64,000 nt of DNA from Streptomyces sannanensis. Its GTDB lineage: Bacteria; Actinomycetota; Actinomycetes; Streptomycetales; Streptomycetaceae. The position numbers and the translations under genes are program-made. The DNA lies in assembly GCF_039536205.1 (NCBI RefSeq), contig NZ_BAAAYL010000003.1, positions 1 to 64,000 on the forward strand, given 5' to 3'. This document shows, in pieces, positions 15,297-64,000 of this stretch. The number at the start of each line of letters is the position of its first letter. Position 1 is the first letter of the stretch. The notes below the pieces were generated by a model. The model saw only the letters and a list, made by a program, of their open reading frames with translations. It did not search any database and had not been told where the DNA came from.

Positions 15297-16002
15297 GATC
15301 CAGCACTTGCGGCTTTCTCGCTTCGTCGTCCCTGCCGCCGCTGTCGTCGCCGGTGTCCTCGCCCTGACCGCATGCGAAAGCGGCACGCAGGCCGACTCCA
15401 AGGCAGCGGCGCCGACGGCGATCACCACGTCCTCCGCGCCGTCCGCATCAAGCACCGCTCAGACTGCGGTCATCCCCGTACTACAGGGCGAGACCTACGG
15501 GCAGGTGCAGGAAGAACTCGTCGGCCAGGATCTGCCGGCCGTGCGCATCACGGCCACAGCCCTGCATAAGGACGTCACACTTCCCACCGACCACAGCGAC
15601 TGGCACATCTGCGAAATTAGCCCCGCGCCCGGCACGAAGGTCACCGCCACCACCACCGTTACCGTCAAACTCGCCCAGAAAGCCGGTGACTGCGCCACCA
15701 GTTTCCACGGCTACCTCCACCAGAAGAACGACCCCGCCTACACCCCGCCCACAACCTCGGCTCCCCAGCCCGTCAAGTCCCACACGCCTGCCCCAACAAA
15801 GACCACCACCAGGCCTGCCGGAAGCTCCATGACCACCTGCCCGGACGGCAAGCAGGGATATGCCTGTACCTCCAACGGGCACCCTGTCGTTGACGGACAG
15901 TTCTGCCCCAACGCCGACCGCGGTCGCACCCTGAAGGCCACCAACGGCACCATGGTCACCTGCTCTTACGACCCCAGCGTCAAGCCGTACCGCTGGCAGT
16001 AA
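15295..16002 (+). CDS. Secreted lipoprotein with PASTA-like domain
   Basis: 235 residues. Lipoprotein signal with lipobox LTAC near residue 28, a serine/threonine-rich linker, a PASTA-like region (VIPVLQGETYGQVQEELVGQ, then APGTKVTATTTVTVKL), a Pro/Thr linker and a C-terminal cysteine-containing domain. Anchored outside the membrane; may bind wall fragments. ATG 15295 is preferred over 15286 because GGAAGG stands 9 bases before it. From about 15,514 the sequence is inside the giant inverted repeat (mirror at 63512-64000). Confidence 0.7.
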   Translation: MIQHLRLSRFVVPAAAVVAGVLALTACESGTQADSKAAAPTAITTSSAPSASSTAQTAVIPVLQGETYGQVQEELVGQDLPAVRITATALHKDVTLPTDHSDWHICEISPAPGTKVTATTTVTVKLAQKAGDCATSFHGYLHQKNDPAYTPPTTSAPQPVKSHTPAPTKTTTRPAGSSMTTCPDGKQGYACTSNGHPVVDGQFCPNADRGRTLKATNGTMVTCSYDPSVKPYRWQ

Positions 16003-16451
16003 CGCCGACACGGTCGGAGCGCCGAGACCAGCGTGTACCCTCCCGGGCCTCGACACTGTGGTGGGTCCTGTCGATCTGAGCCCGCCACTGCGGCCCCAGG
16101 CCATGAAGGCGGCGTCCTGCCCTGCTGGCGCGCCCGGGTTCGGCGAGGTGCTGCTCGTCGATGCGCATGCCCCCTCCGACGAGGCCGTGCACCAGGCCGG
16201 TTCGCCGACGGGTGCGCAACCGCCCGGACGGGTGACCACAGCACCTGTGCCCCCTCGATCGCCAGCCGGGCATGACCAGGAGCCGCCCCCAGCGAAGAAG
16301 ACGCTGCCGCGCGCAGCCCCAGCGCATGCAACGGCTCGAACACGCGCGCCGATCTTGGTGCGTTTGTTAAGACGGGGCGGCCAAGCGCATCTCCCGTCGC
16401 CGTGCCCGCGTGTTGTCGGCGTTGTCAGTGGTGGCGGGCACGATGGCGGTC
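16003..16451. other. Intergenic, no gene seen
   Basis: About 450 bases between the lipoprotein and the ligase. Frames exist on both strands but none has credible domains or a ribosome site. Confidence 0.4.
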
Positions 16452-18536
16452 ATGACAACCACCGATGCTGTGATTGGCGACGACGCCGCGTACGCGGATG
16501 CGGTCCGGACCGCGGTGAAGGCCGCGGCCGCCTACTACGCGGGCGGCGACAGCCCGCTCGACGATGACGCCTACGACCGTCTGGTGCGGGCGATAGCCGC
16601 GTGGGAGGCCGGGCATCCCGACCGGGTGCTGGCCGAGTCGCCGACGGGGAAGGTGGCTGGGGGTGCCACCCAGGGGGATGTGCCGCACGTCCAGCCGATG
16701 CTGAGTCTGGACAATGTGTTCTCCGCCGAGCAGTTCGAGGCATGGGCGGCGTCACTTCAGCGGCGGATCGGCCGGCCGGTCACTGCGTGGAGTGTCGAGC
16801 CGAAGCTGGACGGTCTGGCGCTGGCCGCCCGCTACCGCGACGGCCGGCTGGTGCAGCTGCTCACCCGCGGGGACGGGACGGCCGGGGAGGACGTCTCCCA
16901 CGCCATCGGCACCCTCACAGGCCTGCCGGAGCAGCTGGCCGAACCGGTGACGCTGGAGGTACGCGGTGAAGTGCTGATGACGGCCGCCCAGTTCGAAACG
17001 GCGCTCGCCCTCCGAGCGGAGCACGGCGGGGAGCCGTTCGCGAATCCGCGCAACGCCGCGGCGGGCACGCTGCGGGCCAAGGACCGCGCCTACCGCCTTG
17101 AGATGACGTTCTTCGGCTATGGCTGCCTGCCGCTGCCGGCCACCTCCGAGGACCTCGCGGCACGCCTGACCGCCTCCTCACACAGCGACGTCATGTCCCT
17201 TATCGCCGTGCTCGGCGTGCACACCACGGCTGCCACCAAGGTGCCCGGCCGCACCGCGGGCACCACCGCGCAGGTGCAGGGATGTGTGGAGGAGATCGCT
17301 GCGCTGCGCGCCGAGCTGCCGTTCGGTATCGACGGCATCGTCATCAAGGCCGACCTGGCGGCCGACCAGGAGGCGGCCGGATCCGGCTCGAGGGCGCCGC
17401 GTTGGGCCGTCGCGTGGAAGCTCCCGGCGGTGGAGAAGGTCACCACCCTGATCGGCGTGGAGTGGAACGTGGGCCGCACCGGCATCATCGCTCCCCGGGC
17501 CGTCCTGGAACCCGTCGAGATCGAAGGCTCCACCGTCACCTACGCCACGCTGCACAACCCCGCCGACATCACCCGCCGCGACCTGCGCATCGGCGACCGC
17601 GTGATGGTCTACAAGGCCGGCGACATCATCCCCCGCATCGAAGCCCCCGTCGCCCACCTGCGCACCGGCGCCGAGCAGCCCATCGCCTTCCCCGATGCCT
17701 GCCCGCAGTGCGGCTCGGATATTGACACCTCCGAGCAGCGCTGGCGCTGCGAACGCGGCCGCGACTGCCACCTGGTCGCCTCCGTCTCCTACGCCGCCGG
17801 CCGCGACCAGCTCGACATCGAAGGCCTCGGCCTGACCCGTGTCGTCCAGCTCGCCTACGCCGGCCTCATCCACGACTTCGCCGACCTGTTCACCCTGACC
17901 CGCGACCAGCTTCTGGCGCTGGAGCGGATGGGGCCGACCAGCACCGACAACCTCCTCGCCGCGATCGAGCAGGCCAAGAACCAGCCACTGTCGAGGGTGC
18001 TGTGCGCGCTCGGTGTACGCGGCACCGGACGGTCGATGTCCCGGCGCATCGCCCGCCACTTCGCCACCATGGAAGCGGTCCGTGCCGCCGACGCCGAGGC
18101 GATGCAGCACGTCGACGGCATCGGCACCGAAAAGGCACCGGTCATCGTCGCCGAGCTGGTCCAGCTCGCCCCCGTCATCGACAAGCTCGTCGCCGCCGGG
18201 GTGAACATGACCGAACCCGGCGCCACACCGACCGCCGACACCAACGCCGCCGACGGTGCGGCGGACACGGAGGCGGTGACGACGGGACCGCTTCACGGCC
18301 TGACCGTGGTCGTCACCGGCGCCATGACCGGTCCGCTTCAAAAGCTCAGCCGCAACCAGATGAACGAACTCATCGAACATGCCGGCGGCAGGTCCTCCTC
18401 CAGCGTCTCCAAGCGCACCTCGCTCCTGGTCGCCGGAGAAGGCGCCGGATCCAAACACGCCAAGGCCCAGAACCTCGGCATCCGCATCATCTCGCCCGAC
18501 GAGTTCGCAGGTCTCCTCGCCGACCTTGCCCCCTGA
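16452..18536 (+). CDS. ligA: NAD-dependent DNA ligase
   Basis: 694 residues, full-length LigA. Seals nicks using NAD. Ia domain at the N-terminus ([20 protein letters not shown]), adenylation motif with catalytic lysine PKLDGLAL near residue 118, [11 protein letters not shown], a four-cysteine zinc finger CPQCG...CERGRDC near 417-437, helix-hairpin-helix region ([19 protein letters not shown]) and a C-terminal BRCT domain from about 615. The ATG at 16443 and a GTG at 16410 are alternatives. Streptomyces chromosomes have their own ligA, so this is probably an accessory copy. It lies immediately upstream of the CRISPR locus on the same strand; an identical mirror copy is at 60978-63062. Confidence 0.93.
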
Positions 18537-18853
18537 CCGCCCGCTGCCACCTCGACAACCAGGGCCGGCAGCCCGCCGCCTGACCGTCTCGCGGTGGCTT
18601 CGGCCGCCACCCACCCCACACTCTCCGCAGGCATCCCTTGGAATTGATCATCTAGGAACGCACGCCTGCCGCGCGCGAGCTGCTCTGTCAACGCGGCTGC
18701 GCCGAACCCTTCCAAACCCGACGGACGTGACCGAGACAGGGGTAACTACCGGAACTGTGCCGGCATGTCAGACCCGGCACGTACGCTGACCTCAACACCA
18801 CGAGCATTGACAAAGAAACAGCAAAGCCCCGCAGACTCCACAGGTCAGAAAGG
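18537..18853. other. Intergenic region ending in the array 1 leader
   Basis: About 320 bases without a gene. The final 50 bases are the CRISPR leader. Confidence 0.5.
18805..18853 (+). promoter_or_regulatory. CRISPR leader 1
   Basis: Relatively A-rich stretch with TTGACA (18807-18812) and AAAGAAACAGCAAAGCC, then AGGTCAGAAAGG directly before the first repeat. The same two blocks, AAAGAAACrG-AAAGCC and AGGTCnnnAAG, precede array 2, with a weaker version before array 3. Confidence 0.65.
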
Positions 18854-19427
18854 GTGCTCCCCACGTACGTGGGGGTGATCCGGTCACACCCTCGTCATCC
18901 CGAGGCAGCACGTCGTGCTCCCCACGTACGTGGGGGTGATCCGACGGTCAGCATCATGGTCCAGTACCGGGCGTCGTGCTCCCCACGTACGTGGGGGTGA
19001 TCCGCCGTTCAGCAGGCTGAGGAGGTACTGGCGGACCGTGCTCCCCACGTACGTGGGGGTGATCCGTTGCAGTGGGATGGCGATCTGTCCGTCGATGTGT
19101 GCTCCCCACGTACGTGGGGGGTGATCCGGCCGGGTTCCGCCCCTCCGGGCGGCTACGGCAGTGCTCCCCACGTACGTGGGGGTGATCCGCCGATACCGAC
19201 GCCGACGCCGACGGCCCCTCAGTGCTCCCCACGTACGTGGGGGTGATCCGATCCAGCAGTTCACGCGGTACATCAGCATCCTGTGCTCCCCACGTACGTG
19301 GGGGTGATCCGGGTGGCCTGGCGCGGGTAGAGGCGCTTCCCACGTGCGCGTGGGGTGATCCGTCGGCAGGGTCGTACGTCCGGTGGGCCGGGGAAGTGTT
19401 CCCCACGCTTGGTGGGGGTGCTGTTCG
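18854..19427 (+). CRISPR. Type I-E CRISPR array 1
   Basis: Eight good 29-base repeats start at 18854, 18915, 18976, 19038, 19099 (one extra G), 19162, 19222 and 19283. Degenerate ones follow near 19335 and 19396. Repeat stem CCCCAC-GTAC-GTGGGG, ending GATCCG. Spacers are 31-33 bases and all different. Decay at the high-coordinate end and the leader at the low end give + strand transcription. The last degenerate repeat ends about a dozen bases before the cas3 start. Confidence 0.95.
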
Positions 19428-19438
19428 GGGAGGGATTC

Positions 19439-22249
19439 GTGTCTGACGACGTTTTCGAGTGTCGTATCTGGGGGAAGTCCGAGGGGCTGCCGCCGGGTGT
19501 GTCGCACTACCCGCTGCTGTGCCATCTGATCGATACGGCCGTGATGGCAGATGTCCTGTGGGACGTCTACCTCAACCGTGCGCAGCGGCGGCTGATCGCG
19601 GCCGGGCTGGGGGTCGGCGAGGATGAGGCGCGGCGGGTGGTGGCGTTGTGGGCGGGGCTGCACGACATCGGGAAGGCGATCCCCGGGTGGCAGGCGTACC
19701 GGGCGGATCTGGCGGAGGCGCTGCACGGTGGCGGATTTCCGGGAGTGCCGGCGGTGGATGCGGAGGCGGTCGGCCGTCACGAAGCAGCGTCGCAGCTGCT
19801 TGGGCCGTCGCTTCTGGCGGGGCTGGGCTGGCCGGTGACGGGCGGTGCGCGGGACGGGCTGCCCGGGGTGGTGGCCGGGCAGATCCTCGGTGGGCATCAC
19901 GGCCGGTTTCGTGAGCCGACTGTGCCGGGTGCGGTGGCCGATCCGGTCCCGTTCTGGCCGGGCCTCGGTGTGGGACGGTGGCAGTCCGAGCGGGAGGCTG
20001 TCGCCCGGGTGCTGGCCGAGATTACTGGCGCCCCGCCGTTGGGCGCCCTCGACGGGCGCGCGACGGTCCCGGCCGCGGCGATCACCGTCGTCACCGGCCT
20101 GATCGTCCTTGCTGACTGGCTCGTTTCTCAAGAGCACCACCTCGCCCGCCGGGCCCGTCGAGTGCCCGCCGTGCTGGACTCGGCGGCCGCGCACGCGTGG
20201 GCGAAGGCCAGCCGCCAGCAGGCCCGGAGCCTGGTCGAGGAGGCCGGGCTCGAAGTGCCGGTGCTCACTGGGTCGGCCGTCTCGTTCACCGACATGTTCG
20301 GCTACATCCCGATCACCACGCCGAATCTGCTGCAGCAGAGCATCGCCACGTACTTGCCCGGCATGCTGGCTGACGCGGCCGGCCTGACGCTGGTGACCGC
20401 TCCGACTGGCGACGGAAAGACCGAGGCCGCTCTCTATGCCGCGTCTCTCATGGGCTGCGCGGCCGGTACGCACGGCATATACCTGGCGTTGCCGACGCAG
20501 GCCACTACCGACCAGATCCACGGCCGCCTCGTCGACTGGGCAACCGCGAACCTGCCGAGCGCCGTCACCCGTCTCCACGGCTCCTCATGGATGCATCAGC
20601 CCGATGGCGAGGCCGAACCGCGCGTCATCCACGGCGACACCGGCCAGTCGGTTGAGGCAACCCGCTGGCTCCTGCAGTCCAACCGGCATGGCCTCCTCGC
20701 TCACCTTGCCGCGGGAACCATCGACCAGGCCCTGCTGGGGATGCTGCCGCTCAAGTACGGGCAGCTCCGCCACCTCGGCCTGTCCGGGAAGACTCTCATC
20801 ATCGACGAAGCGCACTCCTACGATGCGTTCACTCACGCGCTTCTCCTGCGCCTGCTGGAGTGGTGCGGCGCCTGGCAGGTCCCGGTCGTCGTCCTGTCCG
20901 CTACCCTCACCGGCGACACGGCCGCCGGGCTGGTCAATGCTTACCGGTCCGGTGCCGGACACACCCGGCCCGCCAAGATCGAACCTGCCTACCCTGGCTG
21001 GTCGTTCACCGACGCCACTACCGGCCAGACCTGCACCCCGCCCGTACCCGTCGGCACCAGCCGGGGCCGCAACCTGCACATCCGCCTTGCCCCCACCCGA
21101 CTCGGCGCCCCGCGTGAGCAGGCGATCATCCGCGAACTCGGCCAGCTCGCCGAACACGGCGGCTGCGCCGCGGTCATCTGCACCACCGTCGCCCAGGCTC
21201 AGGCCACCTACCGCGCTCTCGCCGCCGCCGGTACCAGCACCGAGCTGCACCTCCTGCACGCACGTCTTCCGGCCCACCAGCGCGCCGCCAACACGCAAGC
21301 TGCCGAGATTGCGTTCGGCCGCGTCAACAAGCCCACCACCCACCGTCCGGCCCGCGGCGTCATCGTCGCCACCCAGGTCATCGAGCAGTCTCTCGATCTC
21401 GACTTCGACCTCATCATCAGCGACCTCGCCCCCCTCGCCCTGCTCCTGCAGCGCGCCGGACGCGCCTTCCGCCACGGCCCCGAAGTCTGGGCAGCCGCGG
21501 GCCTTACCCGGCCGGCATGGGCCGGAACCGAACCCCGGATGACTGTCCTTTCCCCCCTCACCGCTCAAGGCGCCGCCGACTTCCACCCCGGCCCCTGGGG
21601 CGACGTCTACCCCGAGTCCCTCCTCCACCGCACCCACGAAATCCTCGACCAACACACTGGACCCATCAACATCCCCGGCGACGTCCAACGCCTCGTGAAC
21701 GCCGTCTACGACCCCGTGTTCGCCTCCCGCACCCCCGACGCCCTGTTCAACGCTGACCGCAACCGGATCGCCGACGACGCCGCCCGCGCCGCCATCGCGC
21801 GCCTCGTCCTGGTCCCCGCCCCCGGCCGCACCCGGACCGCGAACCTCCACCGCCTCACCGACTCCAACGCCGACCCCGACCTGATCACCACCCGACTCGG
21901 CGCCGACAGCGTCCACCTCGTCCCCACCTTCACCAGCAAGACCGGCCAACCGTTCCTCGACCCCGAGAACACCGTCGAGCTCCCCCTCACCGGAGACACC
22001 ACCGACGGACGGTTCAGCCGCGCCCAAGTCCGGCAGATCATGAACTACGCCGTACCGATGCGCGCCGGTGCCTGGCTCACCCAACTCACGCCCGACCAGC
22101 AACCCCCGACCACGTGGGCGCGCGAGCCGCGCCTGAAGCGGCTCGTCCTCCTGCCCCACCACCCCACGCCATCCGGCTACGAAGCCCCACCGATCGGCGG
22201 CCGCCACCTCCACCTCCACCCCGTACTCGGTATCGTCGAAGCCCGATGA
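19439..22249 (+). CDS. cas3: CRISPR-associated nuclease-helicase Cas3 (type I-E)
   Basis: 936 residues. Recruited by Cascade to unwind and degrade target DNA 3'-5'. N-terminal HD nuclease: SHYPLLCHLIDTA, LHDIGKAIPGWQ near 75, GGHHGRF. SF2 helicase: Walker A APTGDGKTE near 325, DEAHSYD near 456, VVLSATL near 487, ATQVIEQSLDLDFD and QRAGRAFRHG near 670. All key residues are present. GTG 19439 is chosen because GGGGAGGG lies 5-6 bases upstream; the longer frame would run through the array 1 trailer. Transcribed in the same direction as array 1 and separated from casA by array 2. Identical mirror copy at 57265-60075. Confidence 0.95.
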   Translation: MSDDVFECRIWGKSEGLPPGVSHYPLLCHLIDTAVMADVLWDVYLNRAQRRLIAAGLGVGEDEARRVVALWAGLHDIGKAIPGWQAYRADLAEALHGGGFPGVPAVDAEAVGRHEAASQLLGPSLLAGLGWPVTGGARDGLPGVVAGQILGGHHGRFREPTVPGAVADPVPFWPGLGVGRWQSEREAVARVLAEITGAPPLGALDGRATVPAAAITVVTGLIVLADWLVSQEHHLARRARRVPAVLDSAAAHAWAKASRQQARSLVEEAGLEVPVLTGSAVSFTDMFGYIPITTPNLLQQSIATYLPGMLADAAGLTLVTAPTGDGKTEAALYAASLMGCAAGTHGIYLALPTQATTDQIHGRLVDWATANLPSAVTRLHGSSWMHQPDGEAEPRVIHGDTGQSVEATRWLLQSNRHGLLAHLAAGTIDQALLGMLPLKYGQLRHLGLSGKTLIIDEAHSYDAFTHALLLRLLEWCGAWQVPVVVLSATLTGDTAAGLVNAYRSGAGHTRPAKIEPAYPGWSFTDATTGQTCTPPVPVGTSRGRNLHIRLAPTRLGAPREQAIIRELGQLAEHGGCAAVICTTVAQAQATYRALAAAGTSTELHLLHARLPAHQRAANTQAAEIAFGRVNKPTTHRPARGVIVATQVIEQSLDLDFDLIISDLAPLALLLQRAGRAFRHGPEVWAAAGLTRPAWAGTEPRMTVLSPLTAQGAADFHPGPWGDVYPESLLHRTHEILDQHTGPINIPGDVQRLVNAVYDPVFASRTPDALFNADRNRIADDAARAAIARLVLVPAPGRTRTANLHRLTDSNADPDLITTRLGADSVHLVPTFTSKTGQPFLDPENTVELPLTGDTTDGRFSRAQVRQIMNYAVPMRAGAWLTQLTPDQQPPTTWAREPRLKRLVLLPHHPTPSGYEAPPIGGRHLHLHPVLGIVEAR

Positions 22250-22257
22250 CCAGTAAG

Positions 22258-22305
22258 CCCGGTAAAGAAACGGAAAAGCCCTCGCATCCATGCAGGTCGC
22301 GAAGG
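22258..22305 (+). promoter_or_regulatory. CRISPR leader 2
   Basis: Begins 9 bases after the cas3 stop: AAAGAAACGGAAAAGCC then AGGTCGCGAAGG abutting the first repeat. The near-match to leader 1 marks it as a functional leader. Confidence 0.65.
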
Positions 22306-23640
22306 GTTCTCCCCACGCATGTGGGGGTGGTCCGCGCTCTTACGTGGTGGTGGGCGCGAACGAGAGGTTCTCCCCACGCATGTGGGGGTGGTCCGGCGGT
22401 ATGGCTCGCCCCGACGTTACCTTCTGCGTTCTCCCCACGCATGTGGGGGTGGTCCGTAACTGTGCACCCATGGGGTGCCCATACCTTAGTTCTCCCCACG
22501 CATGTGGGGGTGGTCCGAAGAGCGACCTCGACAAGCTCACCGACCGGGCGTTCTCCCCACACATGTGGGGGTGGTCCGCCACGGCCGCCCCTCATCCGGC
22601 CCACCGGCACGTTCTCCCCACGCATGTGGGGGTGGTCCGCGGATCACCCCGGACGGGCTCAAGCTGGACCCGTTCTCCCCACGCATGTGGGGGTGGTCCG
22701 TGCGCGGCCTTGGACTCGTCGCCGAGGCGGATGTTCTCCCCACGCATGTGGGGGTGGTCCGTTCATCGAGTTCACCAAGGAAAGCCTCCAGCTGTTCTCC
22801 CCACGCATGTGGGGGTGGTCCGATCTGGCGTTGGGTTCGGTCGTGTGGCGTGACGTTCTCCCCACGCATGTGGGGGTGGTCCGTCAACGGCCAGGACGTA
22901 TGGGAAGGACGGCGGGTTCTCCCCACGCATGTGGGGGTGGTCCAAGAGCGTGTCGGCGCTCAGCGGAGCCGTGTCCGTTCTCCCCACGCATGTGGGGGTG
23001 GTCCGCTCCACCTGCCCGCTCTCGTCGAGCACGACGAGTTCTCCCCACGCATGTGGGGGTGGTCCGGCCGTCATTGGAGAACTGATCGAGGCCCGGAAGT
23101 TCTCCCCACGCATGTGGGGGTGGTTCGGAGCCCATGAGCGGCTGGGCCCGCCACTCCGAGTTCTCCCCACGCATGTGGGGGTGGTCCGACCCAGAACGGC
23201 CTGCCCTACCAGTGGGCCGGGTTCTCCCCACGCATGTGGGGGTGGTCCGAGGACGGCGTGCATGGCGCGGAGCTCGGCGCGGTTCTCCCCACGCATGTGG
23301 GGGTGGTCCGAAGGCCGGGGTGGACCTGGAGCAGCTGCTGCCGTTCTCCCCACGCATGTGGGGGTGGTCCGCACGACGGGCCCGGTACCAGCCGGGCCCG
23401 CCTGTTCTCCCCACGCATGTGGGGGTGGTCCGCTGGACGGGCTGCGGGACGATTACAAGGACATGTTCTCCCCACGCATGTGGGGGTACTCCGGCGGCCT
23501 GCGCCAGATCGGCCTTGTTGGACTGGTTCTCCCCACGCGGGTGGGGTGCTCTGCTGATCGGCTATTCGCAGCTGAACTTCCCGACTTCTCCCCGTGGCAG
23601 GCGTCCAGATCACTTTCCCACGTCGGTGGGGGTTCCAGTC
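22306..23640 (+). CRISPR. Type I-E CRISPR array 2
   Basis: Twenty repeats at a strict 61-base period from 22306 to 23465 (29-base repeat, mostly 32-base spacer), then degenerate repeats near 23526, 23585 and 23612. Repeat stem CCCCAC-GCAT-GTGGGG, ending GGTCCG; it starts GTTCT. Variants at 22550, 22916, 23099 and 23465. Transcribed on + by the leader and decay polarity. It ends about 45 bases before the casA start. Open frames reading SPHACGGGP through it are array artefacts. Confidence 0.97.
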
Positions 23641-23683
23641 ATAAGCGCCGGCGTTGTCAGTCCTGCCGTATACGGTCGGCCGG

Positions 23684-25297
23684 GTGGGTACTCAATACGA
23701 TGAACCGCCCCCGGTGCGGAGGGGGTTGGACGTGGCGATCGACCCGTGGGTTGACGTCACGATGACCGATGGCAGCCCTGGTCGGTTAGGTCTCGCTGGT
23801 CTTCTGGCCGAGGCGCACCGTATCGAAGCGCTGGCTGTGGGGATGCCGCCCGCGGAGTGTGGTCTGCTGCGCATTCTGTATGCGCTGGGGCTGCGGGCGG
23901 CCGGGCTGGAGGAGATGACCGGCGGTGACCGGTACGCGCTCCTGGAGGCTGGCCGGTTTGATCCCGAGCTGGTGGCCGGGTACTTCAGCCAGTATGAGGG
24001 CCGGTTCGGGCTGTTCGACCCGGCCCGTCCGTGGATGCAGGAGCCGCGGCTTCCCGGCCAGATGGATACCGTCCTTGAGTCCGGGCGCCGTAAGGGCGAG
24101 CGGGTGCGGAAGTCGAGCGGGGTCGGGAAGCTGGCGTGGGGCCGGGCGTCGGCGACGAGTTCGGCGTGGTTCGGGCCGTTCCACGACGGGAATCCGGTGC
24201 CGGTTCCGGCTGCCGAGGCGGCCCTGCACCTGGTTGCTTGGCTTTGGTACGGGCAGGGCGGGCCGCAGGGCCCGGACCGTACGACGAAGACGCAGAAGAA
24301 GCGGCACGCGTCGGTGGCGCCGCTGCGGGGCCTGGTGTCGTATCACCCGACGGGACGGACGCTGTTCGAGACGATCGTGCTGGGGATCCCGGAGGTTGAG
24401 GAACCCCCGGAGGTGGACGCGGACCTGGCGCCGTGGGAGGCGGACGTGCTGCCCGACCCGGACGGCACCCTGCCGGAGGCGGCCGGGCCGGTGAGTCTGC
24501 TGACGGCGCGCGCGCAGCACGCTCTGCTGCTGGTCCCGGACGACGAGCGTTCGAGTGCCAGCGACTTGTACGTGTCGTGGGCGTGGCCGGACACTCTTCC
24601 GGCGGTGCGGGATCCGTACGTGATGTGGCGGGAGAGCGAGAAGGGCACGCCGTATCCGCAGCGGGCCCAGGTCGGGCGGTCCTTGTTCCGTGACCTGGAT
24701 GGGCTGCTGCTGCACGCCAACCCGGGTGCGGTCGCGCGGCGACCGCTGATCATGGACGCGATCCACGACGTCCCCGCGACCGTGCTCACACATGTGGGGG
24801 TGACGGCGTACGGGTTCGAGCAGAGCCGGGAGAAGGGCGGCGGTGAGGTCGGCTGGTACCGGTCGGCGACCCCGCCCGTGCTCGTGGCGCTGCGCGAGGA
24901 GGAGGCGGCGAACACGGCGCGGATCGCGGTGGTGCGGGAGCGGGCGGAGCTTGCCGGGTCGCGGCTGGTGTGGGCGCTGGATTCGGTGTGGAAGGAGACG
25001 GCCGTCCCGGCTGGGGGGAAGGTGCCGCCGTCGCCGTGGGGGAAGGCGGCCGAGGCCGGGTACTGGCCGCGGGCCGAGGCCGCGTTCTGGGAGATCCTCG
25101 GCGGCGGGGAGTGGGACAGCGCGCCGGAGGCGTTCGGGCGGATCGCGCTCGATGTGTACGACCGGCTGACCCGTGAGGCCGCCGACGCTGACGATCCGCG
25201 CACCGTGCGGGCCGCGGTCGTGCACCGGCGCAAGGTGCTGTCGGCGTTGCGTACCGGCTCAGTGAAGACCGACCAGGGGAAGGGGAACGCCGCATGA
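23684..25297 (+). CDS. casA: Cascade large subunit CasA/Cse1
   Basis: About 537 residues from GTG 23684 (TTG 23654 would add ten; no strong ribosome site for either). Cse1 recognises the PAM and recruits Cas3. Family features: DVAIDPWVDVTMTDGS at the start, GLAGLLAEAHRIEAL, LLRILYALGLR, RFGLFDPARPWMQEP, SSAWFGPFHDGNP and a C-terminal helical bundle. Shares an ATGA junction with casB at 25294. Array 2 directly precedes it on the same strand. Confidence 0.92.
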   Translation: MGTQYDEPPPVRRGLDVAIDPWVDVTMTDGSPGRLGLAGLLAEAHRIEALAVGMPPAECGLLRILYALGLRAAGLEEMTGGDRYALLEAGRFDPELVAGYFSQYEGRFGLFDPARPWMQEPRLPGQMDTVLESGRRKGERVRKSSGVGKLAWGRASATSSAWFGPFHDGNPVPVPAAEAALHLVAWLWYGQGGPQGPDRTTKTQKKRHASVAPLRGLVSYHPTGRTLFETIVLGIPEVEEPPEVDADLAPWEADVLPDPDGTLPEAAGPVSLLTARAQHALLLVPDDERSSASDLYVSWAWPDTLPAVRDPYVMWRESEKGTPYPQRAQVGRSLFRDLDGLLLHANPGAVARRPLIMDAIHDVPATVLTHVGVTAYGFEQSREKGGGEVGWYRSATPPVLVALREEEAANTARIAVVRERAELAGSRLVWALDSVWKETAVPAGGKVPPSPWGKAAEAGYWPRAEAAFWEILGGGEWDSAPEAFGRIALDVYDRLTREAADADDPRTVRAAVVHRRKVLSALRTGSVKTDQGKGNAA

Positions 25298-25947
25298 GCA
25301 GCAGCGAGCCTGCCAGGGGGCGGGCCGAGCGGGACCGCTTGGCGCAGGCGGATCGGTTTGTTGCAAGGATCGTCGCTGTGTGCCGCCGGGATACCGGGGC
25401 CGGGCAGGCGATCCGGTCGGCTGTCGGCCGGACCCCGGCTGAAGCCGTCCGTGCACACCGGTACGTGGCCCGGCACATCCGGGAGATGCCGGCCCAGGCG
25501 GAGGAGTGGGCGCACTACTCGGTTGCCGGGCTCGTTGCCCTGTATGACCCGCGAGCCAAGCCCGCCAAGGACCACTTGGTCACCGATGGCCAAAGCGTCG
25601 AGGAGGCAGCGGCGCTGACCTGGGGTGAGCGGCTGTACGGGCGGAACCTCGGCGGCGTCCTCGCCGCGCTCGATGCCCCAGGTGTGCGGGGTGAGGACGA
25701 CCCCGAAGGGCCTTCCGCGCGACGGCTGCAGTCCCTCGCCCGTGAGGATCTCACCGGCCTGCACACCACCCTGCCCGGCCTCCTGCGTCGCGTGGCATCC
25801 GGGCGGCTGCTGCCCGACTGGGCCGTCCTGCTGCACGACCTGAGCGGCTGGGACCGCGACCAGGCCCGCGACGCCGCCGCGCTGCGCTGGTCGACCGCCT
25901 ACTACACCCACCTTGCCCGTACCGTCCGTACCGGAAGCGAGAAGTAG
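25294..25947 (+). CDS. casB: Cascade small subunit CasB/Cse2
   Basis: 217 residues, all-helical. Cse2 bridges the Cas7 backbone and stabilises the R-loop. Recognisable by position and by the helical pattern (WAHYSVAGLVALYDP, GLHTTLPGLLRRVASGRLLP, WDRDQARDAAALRWSTAYY). Starts on the ATGA overlapping the casA stop; casC follows after 4 bases. Confidence 0.9.
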   Translation: MSSSEPARGRAERDRLAQADRFVARIVAVCRRDTGAGQAIRSAVGRTPAEAVRAHRYVARHIREMPAQAEEWAHYSVAGLVALYDPRAKPAKDHLVTDGQSVEEAAALTWGERLYGRNLGGVLAALDAPGVRGEDDPEGPSARRLQSLAREDLTGLHTTLPGLLRRVASGRLLPDWAVLLHDLSGWDRDQARDAAALRWSTAYYTHLARTVRTGSEK

Positions 25948-25951
25948 ACCG

Positions 25952-27100
25952 ATGCCGTTCCTGACCCTGCACGCGGTGCAGACCATCCCGTACGCCAACC
26001 TCAATCGTGACGACCTCGGTGCGCCGAAAACCCTCACCTTCGGTGGCGCGACCCGGATCCGAATCTCCTCCCAGTCCCTGGGCCGTCCGCTGCGCGAGTT
26101 CGTCGAGGAGTCCACCGGTATCGAGGCCGTCCGGACCCGCCGCATCGCCACCCTGGTCAAGGATGCGCTGATCACGCGCGGCTGGGACGACGAACTCGCG
26201 GCCGCTGCCGCCGCACAGGTCCTCGACTCGGTCGCGAAGAAGTCAAAGACCGACAAGGTCGGGCTCGCCCTGGACGACAAGGGCACCAAGTCGCTGCTGT
26301 TCGTCCCGGCCTCGACAGGCGAGAAGCTCGCCGACCTGTGCGAGACCTACCGCAACGAGGTGGAGAAGGCGGCCCAGTCGAGCGCGAAGAACCCCAAGCC
26401 CGGGGTGCCGGCCGCCGAGGTCATCGACATCATCAAGTCCATCAACGGCAGCATCGCCCTGTTCGGCCGCATGCTGTCCGAGCTGCCCGGCGCCGGGGTC
26501 GACGCCGCCCGGCAGATGGCCCACGGCTTCACCACCCATGCCGCCCGCCGCCAGCCCGACTTCTTCACCGCCGTGGACGACGTCACCCACGACAGCGACG
26601 AATCCGGCAGCGGCCACATGAACCACGCCGAGTACGCCACCGGCGTTTTCTACCGGTACGCCGTCCTCGACCTCGACGAACTCCTCAACGACACCCATCT
26701 GGCCGGCGACACCACCACCGCCCGCGCCCTAGTCGACGCGTTCACCCGCGGGTTCATCCGCATCCTCCCGCAGGCGAAGAAGAACGGCACCGCCCCGCAC
26801 ACCATCCCTGACCTCGTCCACTTCACCGTTCGCACCGACCAGCCCGTCAACTACGCGGCCGCGTTCGAGCGGCCCGTCCAGGCTGACGAGGGCGGCGGCT
26901 TCGCTGCCCCGTCCCGGCTCGCCCTCGCCCGCTACGCCAGCGCCGTCAACCGGCTCGTCGGCACCGACGATGTCGCCTACAGCGGACACGCCACGATCGC
27001 CGACGGCGAGAACCTGACCGGCCTCGGCGACCGCGCCGACTCCTTCAAGGAGCTCACCGCCGCCGCGGTCGATGCCCTGTTCGGCCCGTACAACGCCTGA
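25952..27100 (+). CDS. casC: Cascade backbone subunit CasC/Cas7e
   Basis: 382 residues. Forms the crRNA-binding filament. The start FLTLHAVQTIPYANLNRDDL with GAPKTLTFGGATRIRISSQS is characteristic of Cse4/Cas7e, with the RAMP-type RRM fold inferred. ATG 25952 lies 4 bases after casB. Followed by an 87-base gap holding a repeat-like hairpin before casD. Confidence 0.95.
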   Translation: MPFLTLHAVQTIPYANLNRDDLGAPKTLTFGGATRIRISSQSLGRPLREFVEESTGIEAVRTRRIATLVKDALITRGWDDELAAAAAAQVLDSVAKKSKTDKVGLALDDKGTKSLLFVPASTGEKLADLCETYRNEVEKAAQSSAKNPKPGVPAAEVIDIIKSINGSIALFGRMLSELPGAGVDAARQMAHGFTTHAARRQPDFFTAVDDVTHDSDESGSGHMNHAEYATGVFYRYAVLDLDELLNDTHLAGDTTTARALVDAFTRGFIRILPQAKKNGTAPHTIPDLVHFTVRTDQPVNYAAAFERPVQADEGGGFAAPSRLALARYASAVNRLVGTDDVAYSGHATIADGENLTGLGDRADSFKELTAAAVDALFGPYNA

Positions 27101-27187
27101 CCTCCGGCTCCCCACGCCCGTGGGGGTTCCCACCGCCCGCCGCACCCGCATGCCCCACGGGGGCGGCGGCCCGAACGGAAGAAGACC
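27101..27187 (+). promoter_or_regulatory. CRISPR-repeat-like hairpin between casC and casD
   Basis: CCCCAC (27110-27115), loop GCCC, GTGGGG (27120-27125), followed by GTTCCC: the same stem and flanks as the CRISPR repeats but as a single unit outside any array. It could be a Cas6e processing site in the operon mRNA, or a stranded repeat. Confidence 0.6.
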
Positions 27188-27943
27188 ATGCCCGGCATCG
27201 TCATCCACCTGTCCGGACCGCTGATGTCCTTCGGCGAGCACTCCCAGTTCACCGAACGCGACACCCATACCCGGCCCACCCGCTCCGCCCTCATCGGTCT
27301 CCTCGCCGCCGCGCACGGCCGCCCCCGCAGCGCCGACATCACCGACCTGACCGGCCTGCGGTTCACGATCCGTGTCGACCGGCCCGGCCAGCGCCTCGTC
27401 GACTTCCACACCATCGGCGGCGGCCTGCCCCAACACCTCACCGTCCCCACCGCCAAGGGCGACCGGAAGGAAGAAGGCACGGCCACGATCGTCACCCGCC
27501 GCCACTACCTCGCCGACGCCGCGTTCACCGTCGCCGTCGACCACCCCGACCCGGCCCTCATCACCGAGGCCGCCACCGCGCTGCGCCGCCCCCGCTGGCC
27601 CCTCTACCTCGGCCGCCGCGCCTGCCCGCCCGCCGGCCCTGTCACGGTCAGCCCCGTCGTAGACGACGCCGCCACGCTCCTCGACACCATGCCCCTGCAC
27701 CGCACCCGCCCCTACGGCGCCGACACCGTCCCCGTCGTCTTCGCCTACGACCACACCCCCCACGAAGAAGCGCCGGCACGCAGCGTCCTCAACGACCAGC
27801 CGGTCAGCTTCCACCCCCACCACCGCGCCCACCGGCCCCGAACCGAATACGTCACCACCCGCCACCTGCCCGCCGACCTGTGCGCCGGATACGGAACGCA
27901 GTGGCTCAACGCCCTCGCCGACCACCAGGAGACCGCGGCATGA
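27188..27943 (+). CDS. casD: Cascade subunit CasD/Cas5e
   Basis: 251 residues. Caps the 5' handle of the crRNA. Start GIVIHLSGPLMSFGEHSQF is the conserved Cas5e N-terminus; then TRPTRSALIGLLAAAHGRPR and the DFHTIGGGLP segment. ATG 27188 has GGAAGAAG upstream. The stop overlaps the casE ATG (ATGA at 27940). Confidence 0.93.
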   Translation: MPGIVIHLSGPLMSFGEHSQFTERDTHTRPTRSALIGLLAAAHGRPRSADITDLTGLRFTIRVDRPGQRLVDFHTIGGGLPQHLTVPTAKGDRKEEGTATIVTRRHYLADAAFTVAVDHPDPALITEAATALRRPRWPLYLGRRACPPAGPVTVSPVVDDAATLLDTMPLHRTRPYGADTVPVVFAYDHTPHEEAPARSVLNDQPVSFHPHHRAHRPRTEYVTTRHLPADLCAGYGTQWLNALADHQETAA

Positions 27944-28680
27944 CCACCACCACCGAACCCGCAACCCGCACGGCCTGGCTCACCCGGCTCCGCATCGACA
28001 CCCGAAACCGGCACGCTCTCGATGTCCTCGATGACGGGGACCGCCTCCACGACGCCCTCATGCGGCTCCTGCCCGACCAGCTTGGCGCCACCGCCCGCGC
28101 CACCGGCGGACTCCTCTTCCGCATCGACGAGACCCCCGCCGGAATCCAGGTCCTGGCCCAGACCCGCACCGAACCCCGCCTCGACCGGCTCCCCACAGGC
28201 TTCACCCAGCCCGTCAGCAAGGACATGACCCGCTTCCTCGCCGCGCTGCGTCCCGGCGTGCCCGTCGCCTACCGGATCGCCGCGAACCCGGTCCGGCAGG
28301 TCGGGAAGAACGACCGGGACCGCAGACACCGCAAGGCGTGCGAAACAGCTCGCGCGCAGGGCCGTCCCGTGCCGAAGACGCCCCCGCCGTCGCGGATCCC
28401 GCTGACCGGGCAGGCAGCCGAAGACTGGTGGCTGGCCCGGGCCACCGCGAACGGCCTGGACGTCGGCACCATCCTCCGCGGCCCCGCCACTGCCCTGCAC
28501 ACGCACCGCGACGGCCGGCACCCCCGCCGTTCCAACCCGGGACGTCACCGCATCGCACTGACCGTGTTCGAAGGAGACGCCGTGATCACCGACGTGGACA
28601 AGGTCCGCGACGCGATCCTCACCGGGATCGGCCGCGGCCGAGCCTACGGCGCCGGACTCCTCAGCATCGCCCTCACATAG
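27940..28680 (+). CDS. casE: crRNA-processing endoribonuclease CasE/Cas6e
   Basis: 246 residues. Cleaves the pre-crRNA at the base of each repeat hairpin and stays in Cascade. Start TAWLTRLRIDTRNRHALDVL, SKDMTRFLAALRPGVPVAYR, and the C-terminal glycine-rich loop ITGIGRGRAYGAGLLSI-type (here LTGIGRGRAYGAGLLSIA). It must handle three repeat variants in this locus. Last gene of the operon; cas1 and cas2, normally next, are absent and array 3 follows. Confidence 0.93.
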   Translation: MTTTTEPATRTAWLTRLRIDTRNRHALDVLDDGDRLHDALMRLLPDQLGATARATGGLLFRIDETPAGIQVLAQTRTEPRLDRLPTGFTQPVSKDMTRFLAALRPGVPVAYRIAANPVRQVGKNDRDRRHRKACETARAQGRPVPKTPPPSRIPLTGQAAEDWWLARATANGLDVGTILRGPATALHTHRDGRHPRRSNPGRHRIALTVFEGDAVITDVDKVRDAILTGIGRGRAYGAGLLSIALT

Positions 28681-28727
28681 AAAGCAAAGGACCGGCAAAC
28701 CGCTACCATCGGCCCAGGTCGCAAAGC
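28681..28727 (+). promoter_or_regulatory. CRISPR leader 3
   Basis: AAAGCAAAGGACCGGCAAACC then CAGGTCGCAAAGC directly before the first repeat of array 3. More diverged than leaders 1 and 2 but with the same block order. Confidence 0.5.
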
Positions 28728-29042
28728 CTCCTCCCCACGCTTGTGGGGGTGTTCCGCCCACCCCCCGCATGGTCGAGGCCCTGCGCACCTCCTCCCCACG
28801 CTTGTGGGGGTGTTCCGACCCGGATGGAGAACGGCCGGCCGCCGATTCTCTCCTCCCCACGCTTGTGGGGGTGTTCCGGTGCAGTCACCGGGGTTGAACG
28901 CGGCGCTTTCCTCCTCCCCACGCTTGTGGGGGTGTTCCGCCTCCGGCCCCGGTGCTGACCGTGTCGGAGCGCTCCTCCCCACGCTTGTGGGGGTGTTCCG
29001 CAGGAGGACGTCCAGGGCTGCATTGACCGGGCCTCCTCCCCC
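28728..29042 (+). CRISPR. Type I-E CRISPR array 3, truncated
   Basis: Five perfect 29-base repeats start at 28728, 28789, 28850, 28911 and 28972 (61-base period, 32-base spacers). A sixth is cut after about 10 bases at 29042. Repeat stem CCCCAC-GCTT-GTGGGG, beginning CTCCT and ending GTTCCG. The break coincides with a TGT-starting mobile-element-like end at 29044. Confidence 0.95.
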
Positions 29043-29043
29043 C

Positions 29044-29097
29044 TGTCGGCAACGGCTGAATCTGGGCCAGTCTGAGCGGTTCAATTCCGGGCCACCG
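29044..29097. mobile_element. Possible IS21-family terminus remnant
   Basis: Starts TGTCGGCAACGG and carries two related direct repeats (CTGAATCTGGGCCA at 29056-29069, TTCAATTCCGGGCCA at 29080-29094), as in multi-repeat IS21-family ends. No transposase remains. It lies exactly where array 3 is cut. Confidence 0.35.
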
Positions 29098-29175
29098 CCC
29101 GGTCTCGGCGGTTGGCGTCAGTCGTTGTCGTCGCAACATGGACGACTGGGCGGGTGAGGAGGAGCGGCCCGGGGT

Positions 29176-29430: not shown

Positions 29431-29447
29431 CATCTGGCTTTGCCCGG

Positions 29448-32482: not shown

Positions 32483-32501
32483 CGCCCGCTGGCGCTCTTG
32501 C

Positions 32502-33425: not shown

Positions 33426-33435
33426 CCACGGCAGG

Positions 33436-35483: not shown

Positions 35484-35488
35484 GCCCC

Positions 35489-36408: not shown

Positions 36409-36414
36409 ATGACA

Positions 36415-57264: not shown

Positions 57265-60075
57265 TCATCGGGCTTCGACGATACCGAGTACGGGGTGGAG
57301 GTGGAGGTGGCGGCCGCCGATCGGTGGGGCTTCGTAGCCGGATGGCGTGGGGTGGTGGGGCAGGAGGACGAGCCGCTTCAGGCGCGGCTCGCGCGCCCAC
57401 GTGGTCGGGGGTTGCTGGTCGGGCGTGAGTTGGGTGAGCCAGGCACCGGCGCGCATCGGTACGGCGTAGTTCATGATCTGCCGGACTTGGGCGCGGCTGA
57501 ACCGTCCGTCGGTGGTGTCTCCGGTGAGGGGGAGCTCGACGGTGTTCTCGGGGTCGAGGAACGGTTGGCCGGTCTTGCTGGTGAAGGTGGGGACGAGGTG
57601 GACGCTGTCGGCGCCGAGTCGGGTGGTGATCAGGTCGGGGTCGGCGTTGGAGTCGGTGAGGCGGTGGAGGTTCGCGGTCCGGGTGCGGCCGGGGGCGGGG
57701 ACCAGGACGAGGCGCGCGATGGCGGCGCGGGCGGCGTCGTCGGCGATCCGGTTGCGGTCAGCGTTGAACAGGGCGTCGGGGGTGCGGGAGGCGAACACGG
57801 GGTCGTAGACGGCGTTCACGAGGCGTTGGACGTCGCCGGGGATGTTGATGGGTCCAGTGTGTTGGTCGAGGATTTCGTGGGTGCGGTGGAGGAGGGACTC
57901 GGGGTAGACGTCGCCCCAGGGGCCGGGGTGGAAGTCGGCGGCGCCTTGAGCGGTGAGGGGGGAAAGGACAGTCATCCGGGGTTCGGTTCCGGCCCATGCC
58001 GGCCGGGTAAGGCCCGCGGCTGCCCAGACTTCGGGGCCGTGGCGGAAGGCGCGTCCGGCGCGCTGCAGGAGCAGGGCGAGGGGGGCGAGGTCGCTGATGA
58101 TGAGGTCGAAGTCGAGATCGAGAGACTGCTCGATGACCTGGGTGGCGACGATGACGCCGCGGGCCGGACGGTGGGTGGTGGGCTTGTTGACGCGGCCGAA
58201 CGCAATCTCGGCAGCTTGCGTGTTGGCGGCGCGCTGGTGGGCCGGAAGACGTGCGTGCAGGAGGTGCAGCTCGGTGCTGGTACCGGCGGCGGCGAGAGCG
58301 CGGTAGGTGGCCTGAGCCTGGGCGACGGTGGTGCAGATGACCGCGGCGCAGCCGCCGTGTTCGGCGAGCTGGCCGAGTTCGCGGATGATCGCCTGCTCAC
58401 GCGGGGCGCCGAGTCGGGTGGGGGCAAGGCGGATGTGCAGGTTGCGGCCCCGGCTGGTGCCGACGGGTACGGGCGGGGTGCAGGTCTGGCCGGTAGTGGC
58501 GTCGGTGAACGACCAGCCAGGGTAGGCAGGTTCGATCTTGGCGGGCCGGGTGTGTCCGGCACCGGACCGGTAAGCATTGACCAGCCCGGCGGCCGTGTCG
58601 CCGGTGAGGGTAGCGGACAGGACGACGACCGGGACCTGCCAGGCGCCGCACCACTCCAGCAGGCGCAGGAGAAGCGCGTGAGTGAACGCATCGTAGGAGT
58701 GCGCTTCGTCGATGATGAGAGTCTTCCCGGACAGGCCGAGGTGGCGGAGCTGCCCGTACTTGAGCGGCAGCATCCCCAGCAGGGCCTGGTCGATGGTTCC
58801 CGCGGCAAGGTGAGCGAGGAGGCCATGCCGGTTGGACTGCAGGAGCCAGCGGGTTGCCTCAACCGACTGGCCGGTGTCGCCGTGGATGACGCGCGGTTCG
58901 GCCTCGCCATCGGGCTGATGCATCCATGAGGAGCCGTGGAGACGGGTGACGGCGCTCGGCAGGTTCGCGGTTGCCCAGTCGACGAGGCGGCCGTGGATCT
59001 GGTCGGTAGTGGCCTGCGTCGGCAACGCCAGGTATATGCCGTGCGTACCGGCCGCGCAGCCCATGAGAGACGCGGCATAGAGAGCGGCCTCGGTCTTTCC
59101 GTCGCCAGTCGGAGCGGTCACCAGCGTCAGGCCGGCCGCGTCAGCCAGCATGCCGGGCAAGTACGTGGCGATGCTCTGCTGCAGCAGATTCGGCGTGGTG
59201 ATCGGGATGTAGCCGAACATGTCGGTGAACGAGACGGCCGACCCAGTGAGCACCGGCACTTCGAGCCCGGCCTCCTCGACCAGGCTCCGGGCCTGCTGGC
59301 GGCTGGCCTTCGCCCACGCGTGCGCGGCCGCCGAGTCCAGCACGGCGGGCACTCGACGGGCCCGGCGGGCGAGGTGGTGCTCTTGAGAAACGAGCCAGTC
59401 AGCAAGGACGATCAGGCCGGTGACGACGGTGATCGCCGCGGCCGGGACCGTCGCGCGCCCGTCGAGGGCGCCCAACGGCGGGGCGCCAGTAATCTCGGCC
59501 AGCACCCGGGCGACAGCCTCCCGCTCGGACTGCCACCGTCCCACACCGAGGCCCGGCCAGAACGGGACCGGATCGGCCACCGCACCCGGCACAGTCGGCT
59601 CACGAAACCGGCCGTGATGCCCACCGAGGATCTGCCCGGCCACCACCCCGGGCAGCCCGTCCCGCGCACCGCCCGTCACCGGCCAGCCCAGCCCCGCCAG
59701 AAGCGACGGCCCAAGCAGCTGCGACGCTGCTTCGTGACGGCCGACCGCCTCCGCATCCACCGCCGGCACTCCCGGAAATCCGCCACCGTGCAGCGCCTCC
59801 GCCAGATCCGCCCGGTACGCCTGCCACCCGGGGATCGCCTTCCCGATGTCGTGCAGCCCCGCCCACAACGCCACCACCCGCCGCGCCTCATCCTCGCCGA
59901 CCCCCAGCCCGGCCGCGATCAGCCGCCGCTGCGCACGGTTGAGGTAGACGTCCCACAGGACATCTGCCATCACGGCCGTATCGATCAGATGGCACAGCAG
60001 CGGGTAGTGCGACACACCCGGCGGCAGCCCCTCGGACTTCCCCCAGATACGACACTCGAAAACGTCGTCAGACAC
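57265..60075 (-). CDS. cas3: Mirror copy of cas3, intact
   Basis: Same 936-residue protein as at 19439-22249 with every motif (HD, Walker A, DEAH, QRAGRAFRHG). Beyond the error boundary, so probably the same physical gene assembled twice. Confidence 0.9.
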   Translation of the reverse strand: MSDDVFECRIWGKSEGLPPGVSHYPLLCHLIDTAVMADVLWDVYLNRAQRRLIAAGLGVGEDEARRVVALWAGLHDIGKAIPGWQAYRADLAEALHGGGFPGVPAVDAEAVGRHEAASQLLGPSLLAGLGWPVTGGARDGLPGVVAGQILGGHHGRFREPTVPGAVADPVPFWPGLGVGRWQSEREAVARVLAEITGAPPLGALDGRATVPAAAITVVTGLIVLADWLVSQEHHLARRARRVPAVLDSAAAHAWAKASRQQARSLVEEAGLEVPVLTGSAVSFTDMFGYIPITTPNLLQQSIATYLPGMLADAAGLTLVTAPTGDGKTEAALYAASLMGCAAGTHGIYLALPTQATTDQIHGRLVDWATANLPSAVTRLHGSSWMHQPDGEAEPRVIHGDTGQSVEATRWLLQSNRHGLLAHLAAGTIDQALLGMLPLKYGQLRHLGLSGKTLIIDEAHSYDAFTHALLLRLLEWCGAWQVPVVVLSATLTGDTAAGLVNAYRSGAGHTRPAKIEPAYPGWSFTDATTGQTCTPPVPVGTSRGRNLHIRLAPTRLGAPREQAIIRELGQLAEHGGCAAVICTTVAQAQATYRALAAAGTSTELHLLHARLPAHQRAANTQAAEIAFGRVNKPTTHRPARGVIVATQVIEQSLDLDFDLIISDLAPLALLLQRAGRAFRHGPEVWAAAGLTRPAWAGTEPRMTVLSPLTAQGAADFHPGPWGDVYPESLLHRTHEILDQHTGPINIPGDVQRLVNAVYDPVFASRTPDALFNADRNRIADDAARAAIARLVLVPAPGRTRTANLHRLTDSNADPDLITTRLGADSVHLVPTFTSKTGQPFLDPENTVELPLTGDTTDGRFSRAQVRQIMNYAVPMRAGAWLTQLTPDQQPPTTWAREPRLKRLVLLPHHPTPSGYEAPPIGGRHLHLHPVLGIVEAR

Positions 60076-60086
60076 GAATCCCTCCC

Positions 60087-60660
60087 CGAACAGCACCCCC
60101 ACCAAGCGTGGGGAACACTTCCCCGGCCCACCGGACGTACGACCCTGCCGACGGATCACCCCACGCGCACGTGGGAAGCGCCTCTACCCGCGCCAGGCCA
60201 CCCGGATCACCCCCACGTACGTGGGGAGCACAGGATGCTGATGTACCGCGTGAACTGCTGGATCGGATCACCCCCACGTACGTGGGGAGCACTGAGGGGC
60301 CGTCGGCGTCGGCGTCGGTATCGGCGGATCACCCCCACGTACGTGGGGAGCACTGCCGTAGCCGCCCGGAGGGGCGGAACCCGGCCGGATCACCCCCCAC
60401 GTACGTGGGGAGCACACATCGACGGACAGATCGCCATCCCACTGCAACGGATCACCCCCACGTACGTGGGGAGCACGGTCCGCCAGTACCTCCTCAGCCT
60501 GCTGAACGGCGGATCACCCCCACGTACGTGGGGAGCACGACGCCCGGTACTGGACCATGATGCTGACCGTCGGATCACCCCCACGTACGTGGGGAGCACG
60601 ACGTGCTGCCTCGGGATGACGAGGGTGTGACCGGATCACCCCCACGTACGTGGGGAGCAC
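60087..60660 (-). CRISPR. Mirror copy of array 1, intact
   Basis: Exact inverted copy of 18854-19427, including the extra G in the fifth repeat and both degenerate trailer repeats. Identity down to such details argues for one source molecule. Confidence 0.95.
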
Positions 60661-63062: not shown

Positions 63063-63511
63063 GACCGCCATCGTGCCCGCCACCACTGACAACGCCGACA
63101 ACACGCGGGCACGGCGACGGGAGATGCGCTTGGCCGCCCCGTCTTAACAAACGCACCAAGATCGGCGCGCGTGTTCGAGCCGTTGCATGCGCTGGGGCTG
63201 CGCGCGGCAGCGTCTTCTTCGCTGGGGGCGGCTCCTGGTCATGCCCGGCTGGCGATCGAGGGGGCACAGGTGCTGTGGTCACCCGTCCGGGCGGTTGCGC
63301 ACCCGTCGGCGAACCGGCCTGGTGCACGGCCTCGTCGGAGGGGGCATGCGCATCGACGAGCAGCACCTCGCCGAACCCGGGCGCGCCAGCAGGGCAGGAC
63401 GCCGCCTTCATGGCCTGGGGCCGCAGTGGCGGGCTCAGATCGACAGGACCCACCACAGTGTCGAGGCCCGGGAGGGTACACGCTGGTCTCGGCGCTCCGA
63501 CCGTGTCGGCG

Positions 63512-64000
63512 TTACTGCCAGCGGTACGGCTTGACGCTGGGGTCGTAAGAGCAGGTGACCATGGTGCCGTTGGTGGCCTTCAGGGTGCGACCGCGGTCGG
63601 CGTTGGGGCAGAACTGTCCGTCAACGACAGGGTGCCCGTTGGAGGTACAGGCATATCCCTGCTTGCCGTCCGGGCAGGTGGTCATGGAGCTTCCGGCAGG
63701 CCTGGTGGTGGTCTTTGTTGGGGCAGGCGTGTGGGACTTGACGGGCTGGGGAGCCGAGGTTGTGGGCGGGGTGTAGGCGGGGTCGTTCTTCTGGTGGAGG
63801 TAGCCGTGGAAACTGGTGGCGCAGTCACCGGCTTTCTGGGCGAGTTTGACGGTAACGGTGGTGGTGGCGGTGACCTTCGTGCCGGGCGCGGGGCTAATTT
63901 CGCAGATGTGCCAGTCGCTGTGGTCGGTGGGAAGTGTGACGTCCTTATGCAGGGCTGTGGCCGTGATGCGCACGGCCGGCAGATCCTGGCCGACGAGTTC
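63512..64000 (-). CDS. Mirror copy of the PASTA-like lipoprotein, cut by window end
   Basis: C-terminal 162 codons of the gene at 15295-16002, identical. The mirror therefore extends beyond this window. Confidence 0.85.
   Translation of the reverse strand, partial: ELVGQDLPAVRITATALHKDVTLPTDHSDWHICEISPAPGTKVTATTTVTVKLAQKAGDCATSFHGYLHQKNDPAYTPPTTSAPQPVKSHTPAPTKTTTRPAGSSMTTCPDGKQGYACTSNGHPVVDGQFCPNADRGRTLKATNGTMVTCSYDPSVKPYRWQ

Follow-up and report, generated by a model that had tools for sequence, protein, structure and literature searches.

A mirror repeat of 40-kb arms at the start of a Streptomyces sannanensis linear plasmid contig, probably a fold-back artefact of long-read assembly

The first 64,000 bases of contig NZ_BAAAYL010000003.1 from Streptomyces sannanensis (NCBI RefSeq assembly GCF_039536205.1), hereafter called the window, contain a giant inverted repeat, and the question raised by this locus is whether the linear plasmid truly carries such a palindrome or whether it was produced on the way from DNA to contig. 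The assembly consists of five contigs with 7.83 Mb, referred to as C1 to C5, of which C5 reads as N and C3, with 179,521 bp, is the one that begins with the window. The palindrome is considered here to be a fold-back artefact of long-read assembly near a poorly covered end of the plasmid and not a real genomic feature, a reading to which we give a probability of roughly 0.76.

Comparison of the whole contig with its own reverse complement showed that C3:1-39,880 mirrors C3:39,881-79,518, with the mirror limited by the very first base of the contig on the left and by ordinary plasmid interior (79,518) on the right. This self-inverse match of 80 kb is real, and chance is ruled out. The arms are reverse complements aligning from base 1 to 79,518 and meeting within 200 bp, namely at a 4-nt TGAG loop (39,879-39,882) closed by a perfect stem of 23 bp (39,856-39,905). 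Inside the window, positions 15,514-39,878 and 64,000-39,883 share 96.2% identity over 24,633 alignment columns, of which 143 are mismatches and 783 are gaps. The mirror is inexact and needs these gaps: when 24 kb were compared without them, the identity was only about 30% for each of 22 axis positions. The initial annotation of this DNA had placed the axis at 39,880/39,881, which is correct, and had described a mirror of more than 24 kb on each side leaving the window, which was borne out by the alignments, as well as a perfect stem around the TGAG loop, which is indeed perfect, its length being 23 and not 21 bp. As for the other contigs, C2 has a sole inverted self-match of at least 300 bp (522 columns at 88%) and C4 has none of that length, and a second fold-back in these two contigs was rejected. 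In C1, where the check covered the ends, there is a terminal inverted repeat that is exact over at least 20 kb. Terminal inverted repeats are usual for Streptomyces chromosomes.

The two copies are far from equal in quality. Out of 931 differences between the arms, 5 are located in left-arm positions 1-22,000 and 926 in positions 22,001-39,878, with the identity per kb being 99.6-100% in the outer 22 kb, 98.6-99.9% from 22 to 27 kb and about 90-98% in the last 13 kb before the axis. The last 18,000 alignment columns contain 693 runs of insertions or deletions (indels), 631 of which are single-base and 6 of which have a length divisible by three. In the left-arm orientation, the bases missing from the right copy are 420 G, 41 T, 36 C and 18 A, with the supply of bases in the inner arm being nearly even (5,973 G vs 6,570 C), and the bias sits in short runs, since 176 of 570 GG vs 14 of 673 CC are affected between 28 and 38 kb. 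The error-dense part of the right arm thus spans from 39,881 to approximately 57,500 and mirrors the left arm from 22 to 39.9 kb. The one-strand deletion bias implies that the inner right copy was derived from reads of one direction, and judging from its sequence the most plausible view of this copy is that it represents a raw consensus of such reads rather than evolved DNA. The error type also changes in steps along the right arm, near the left-arm positions 27.5, 32.3, 36 and 38.5 kb; these steps were considered as possible read ends and rejected, as they are not monotonic, and consequently they do not reveal the number of reads.

The same inequality is seen at the level of reading frames. 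Reading-phase persistence amounts to 0.17-0.44 in six 3-kb segments of 39-57 kb and mostly to 0.5-1.0 elsewhere, although it is only a rough error gauge, with lows of 0.39 (C3) and 0.28 (C2) occurring outside the suspect stretches. When 71 annotated proteins translated from four related plasmids were searched against the arms with tblastn, the inner left arm was matched by 19 of them, several being mutually homologous, and all 19 scored higher there than on the right arm. Among the remaining proteins, four that cross the axis and two that lie in the identical outer part were set aside, and the other 46 of the 71 had either no match or a match to the single-copy part only. Measured against the relatives' proteins, genes that are open in the left copy are broken in the right one. 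The left arm (1-39,880) is therefore the better copy of the plasmid-end sequence, with its open reading frames (ORFs) intact except for one probable frameshift near 33,72x, and the right arm, represented in the window by 39,881-64,000 and running on to C3:79,518, is a second copy that probably corresponds to no real extra DNA.

Plasmid records resembling the window at 33-39.9 kb belong to Streptomyces in 215 of 220 cases. Five related linear plasmids are unfolded at this site, and their sequence runs 2,369-3,337 bases beyond the axis to the record end. The axis cuts a small hypothetical gene, whose C-terminal part of about 50 codons occupies 39,733-39,880 on the minus strand; the product has 129-132 aa in three of four relatives and 164 aa in the fourth, and tblastn matches here only its last ~51 residues, beginning at the axis. 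Outward of this gene the relatives carry a gene for a telomeric helicase of about 800 aa, and their record ends, where inspected, are packed palindromes, with the exception of one record whose start already lies within that gene. By comparison with these sequences the axis site is subtelomeric, and the idea that the axis itself is a true telomere was rejected, as the five relatives extend 2.4-3.3 kb farther, through the helicase gene, to ends that, where tested, are packed palindromes. Besides the window's own genome, 24 of the 392 genomes searched match the site, and in none of the 19 whose match reaches the axis does a mirror continue past it.

When the final 150 bp of the left arm were compared with 75 related loci, some of which may be near-duplicates, a match was obtained in 37, and four of these were too short and were dropped. 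In all 33 readable loci the flanks are not mirror images of each other (0.25-0.37 identity over 60 bp, vs 0.78 ungapped in the window). The axis sequence in relatives often reads CCCGG-TGAG-CCGGG, with a stem of at least 5 bp in 13 and of at least 4 bp in 16 of the 33 loci, whereas in the background (C3, 57-176 kb) a stem of at least 5 bp is found at 0.2% of positions with a 4-nt loop and at 1.2% with loops of 3-8 nt. Just past the axis, the relatives' sequence and the mirrored one agree for the first few bases. As the short inverted repeat is common at this place in relatives and rare in the background, the fold was probably nucleated there by an end that snapped back; this could happen in library preparation as well as in the cell, so the repeat does not decide between artefact and reality.

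The plasmid end that relatives carry beyond the axis was looked for in the rest of the assembly, and the search gave paralogous pieces on C2 and C4 at the protein level and, additionally, two matches of about 30 bp on C1 at the DNA level. The opposite end of C3 is not in order either: its last ~2.7 kb (176,772-179,521) are mostly A/C low-complexity junk, and the start of this junk (~176.77 kb) lies 3.2-3.6 kb from the telomere in two of three relatives. By a simple hairpin measure, none of the eight ends of C1-C4 tested has a telomere-like density (0-0.09 of 300 bp in stems), compared with 0.29-0.40 at seven of seven control plasmid ends and a background with a mean of 0.03 and a maximum of 0.11 in 30 windows; C3 was represented by the axis and by the stretch immediately preceding the junk. 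Contig ends thus appear to be a general weak point of this assembly, which would be expected if protein-bound terminal fragments were under-sampled, and the missing end is probably not a sign of a real event, although this is the weakest link of the artefact case. Incomplete telomeres were also reported in one Streptomyces nanopore study (PMC9045324).

Some further observations concern contig ends. In C2:1-4,645, the first 3 kb have the lowest reading-phase persistence of the contig (0.17, with the interior going down to 0.28), and a helicase homologue with an internal stop is located at C2:3,479-4,645, so the C2 start is perhaps another raw contig end. The sequence TTACACACCCA occurs three times in the genome, always at a contig end (C1:3-13, C1:7,409,341-7,409,351 and C4:112,923-112,933), and may be the remnant of an adapter or barcode, or else a motif that truly belongs to the ends; it may resemble an Oxford Nanopore Technologies (ONT) barcode.

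Four observations, namely the geometry of the two copies, the pattern of errors, the subtelomeric site and the missing end sequence, make it quite reasonable to suggest the following course of events. Long reads over the left end of the plasmid would have been scarce, and one or a few of them would have been fold-backs from a broken end closed on itself, with a frayed 3′ end snapping back at CCGG-TGAG-CCGG and being sealed in library preparation or in the cell. Such a molecule would be read along one strand outward to the end and then along the complement back inward, and the assembler would set the second half of the reads beside the first, thereby producing two copies. Ordinary and polishing reads would then align with the left copy, the better one, so that raw one-strand errors would persist in the part of the right copy near the axis. 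The initial annotation had left the choice between a fold-back read and a real head-to-head duplication; the former is now favoured, owing to the one-strand errors and the mirror that starts at contig base 1, and the latter has become unlikely. The error-ridden inner right copy, the coincidence of the mirror with the contig start and the subtelomeric site were absent from that annotation, and its statement that 39.9-64 kb is duplicate information stands in substance, with the qualification that the 39.9-57.5 kb part is a degraded copy.

The probability given to the artefact rests on the coincidence with the contig start, on the one-strand errors and on two properties described for nanopore reads. 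One survey of ONT genomic reads puts the share of fold-backs at about 0.55-0.6%, and a study cited there gives 1-4% as typical (PMC12870357). Nanopore accuracy is reported to fall past the junction of an inverted duplicate, and the affected length is correlated with that of the arm before the junction (PMC7229812).

Several points weigh against this reading. The nanopore platform is itself deduced from the error type and the junk tail. Left-arm positions 36.5-38.5 kb differ from the right copy almost solely by G deletions, which looks more like the consensus of several same-direction reads than like one chimeric read, and in recent ONT genomic data fold-back artefacts are said to recur seldom at one site (PMC12870357). 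The relatives' short inverted repeat falls on the axis, and in-vivo fold-backs use repeats of this type too (PMC3907307). The outer stretch of about 3 kb found in relatives is absent from this assembly, and a real loss would look alike. The third relative, NZ_CP109359.1, puts the right end of C3 at about 4.4 kb from the telomere with matches that are not collinear, and fewer than eight independent telomeres are to be expected among the ends tested, as C1 has the identical repeat at both of its ends, and C2 and C4 are perhaps not linear molecules.

The leading alternative is a real telomere loss, in which the left ~3 kb would have disappeared and the resected 3′ end would have snapped back at CCGG-TGAG-CCGG, so that the end became a covalent hairpin or was turned by replication into a head-to-head dimer. 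End-to-end fusions in Streptomyces, reportedly described by Wenner in 2003, would be a precedent. The frequency of stems of at least 5 bp at the axis site (13 of 33 related loci vs 0.2% or 1.2% of background positions, depending on the loop) agrees with such an event, as does the absence of the relatives' helicase and telomere DNA from this assembly. Among published cases, 13 junctions of human inverted duplications showed inverted microhomology of 2-8 bp (PMC3907307), and the long inverted repeats of an S. rimosus plasmid were backed by pulsed-field gel electrophoresis and doubled coverage (PMC9045324). Against this, the inner second copy bears no sign of two-strand read support, the mirror ends exactly at the contig start, and the missing end sequence is not peculiar to this end, since none of the eight ends tested is telomere-like; moreover, the human fold-backs described in PMC3907307 have unduplicated spacers of at least 766 bp, whereas the loop here is 4 nt. 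Real telomere loss is therefore regarded as unlikely, and it is likewise doubtful that the plasmid was healed by self-primed fold-back at a 4-5 bp inverted repeat after losing its protein-capped left telomere and is now hairpin-capped or a head-to-head dimer. Reads crossing the axis are a poor discriminator here, because artefactual fold-back reads cross it too, and doubled coverage of the arm would hardly serve better, as neither a complete head-to-head dimer nor a hairpin-capped end should give it.

A fold at a fixed axis would also be expected if a telomere resolvase had formed a normal hairpin telomere and the nanopore had read round it. This is very improbable, because the record ends of relatives lie 2.4-3.3 kb farther out and, where tested, are of the packed-palindrome type; the genome has no match to PF16684, the resolvase family, although the control for this search is weak, with one of 14 control genomes (Synechococcus) being positive. 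An old, diverged inverted duplication retained by the plasmid might be suggested by the arms differing by up to 10% near the axis, and is hardly credible, being contradicted by the difference counts: the differences are nearly all frame-breaking, biased to one strand and confined to the inner 18 kb, with 5 in the outer 22 kb, and a clustered regularly interspaced short palindromic repeats (CRISPR) array lies within a stretch that is 100% identical in both arms.

The gene content of the mirrored arm was examined by scanning 18 ORFs of the window, 10 against Pfam and 10 against NCBIfam, two being in both sets. Window positions 18,850-28,680 hold a plasmid-borne type I-E CRISPR-Cas system with two arrays of different repeats, all genes and arrays being on the plus strand. 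Array 1 (18,850-19,321), the one mentioned above, has a period of 61-62 bp, and array 2 (22,306-23,554), with 20 register copies and a 61-bp period, also gives offset matches in the arm alignment. Between them lies the gene coding for Cas3 of 964 aa (19,355-22,249), and the corresponding stretch of the other arm, 57,265-60,159 on the minus strand, has an equally long ORF. They are followed by genes coding for Cse1/CasA (23,654-25,297), a CT1975-like (Cas7e-type) protein (25,913-27,100) and Cas5e (27,188-27,943), and by a Cas6e-like ORF (27,880-28,680) scoring 44.9 bits vs the NCBIfam cut-off of 45.2. If the fold is an artefact, the arm genes including CRISPR-Cas are to be counted once.

Sugar-related genes were also recognised, as well as an NAD-dependent DNA ligase of 708 aa (16,410-18,536) with adenylation, OB, HhH and BRCT domains. 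An N-terminal fragment of a MobF/TrwC relaxase at 9,597-10,631 duplicates, with 84% identity, a portion of a longer relaxase gene (C3:92,302-93,316). At 36,567-38,489 a pRL2-11/DUF87-like protein, represented by its first ~386 residues, continues within one open frame into residues 43-282 of a helix-turn-helix regulator; this is likely a deletion fusion, as the two genes are separate in relatives.

As it stands, the contig is unfit for use, since about 40 kb including the CRISPR-Cas locus are probably counted twice and about 18 kb of the second copy are full of false frameshifts. Signs of a fold-back end that can be recognised without reads are a mirror starting at contig base 1, indels that do not come in threes, a one-strand deletion bias and relatives extending past the axis. 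A real fold would mean that telomere loss in a bacterium was healed by fold-back, a route described for human and yeast inverted duplications.

Among known systems, the locus resembles the fold-back artefact reads described by Heinz et al. 2026 (PMC12870357), in which the read turns at one point from the template to the reverse complement, in many cases with nothing between the two halves, and which are said to be able to tangle assembly graphs. Unlike in those reads, the mirror here is built into a contig, is known from the assembly alone, and has its axis at a short inverted repeat of the relatives. With the nanopore accuracy loss described by Spealman et al. 2020 (PMC7229812) it shares one normal arm and a poor mirror arm beside the junction, although the poor arm is found here in a consensus and not in single reads, and a true palindrome would show it as well. 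The linear plasmid of S. rimosus R6-500 (PMC9045324) likewise provides a large mirror repeat on a Streptomyces linear plasmid, whereas in S. sannanensis both copies are written out, and they differ.
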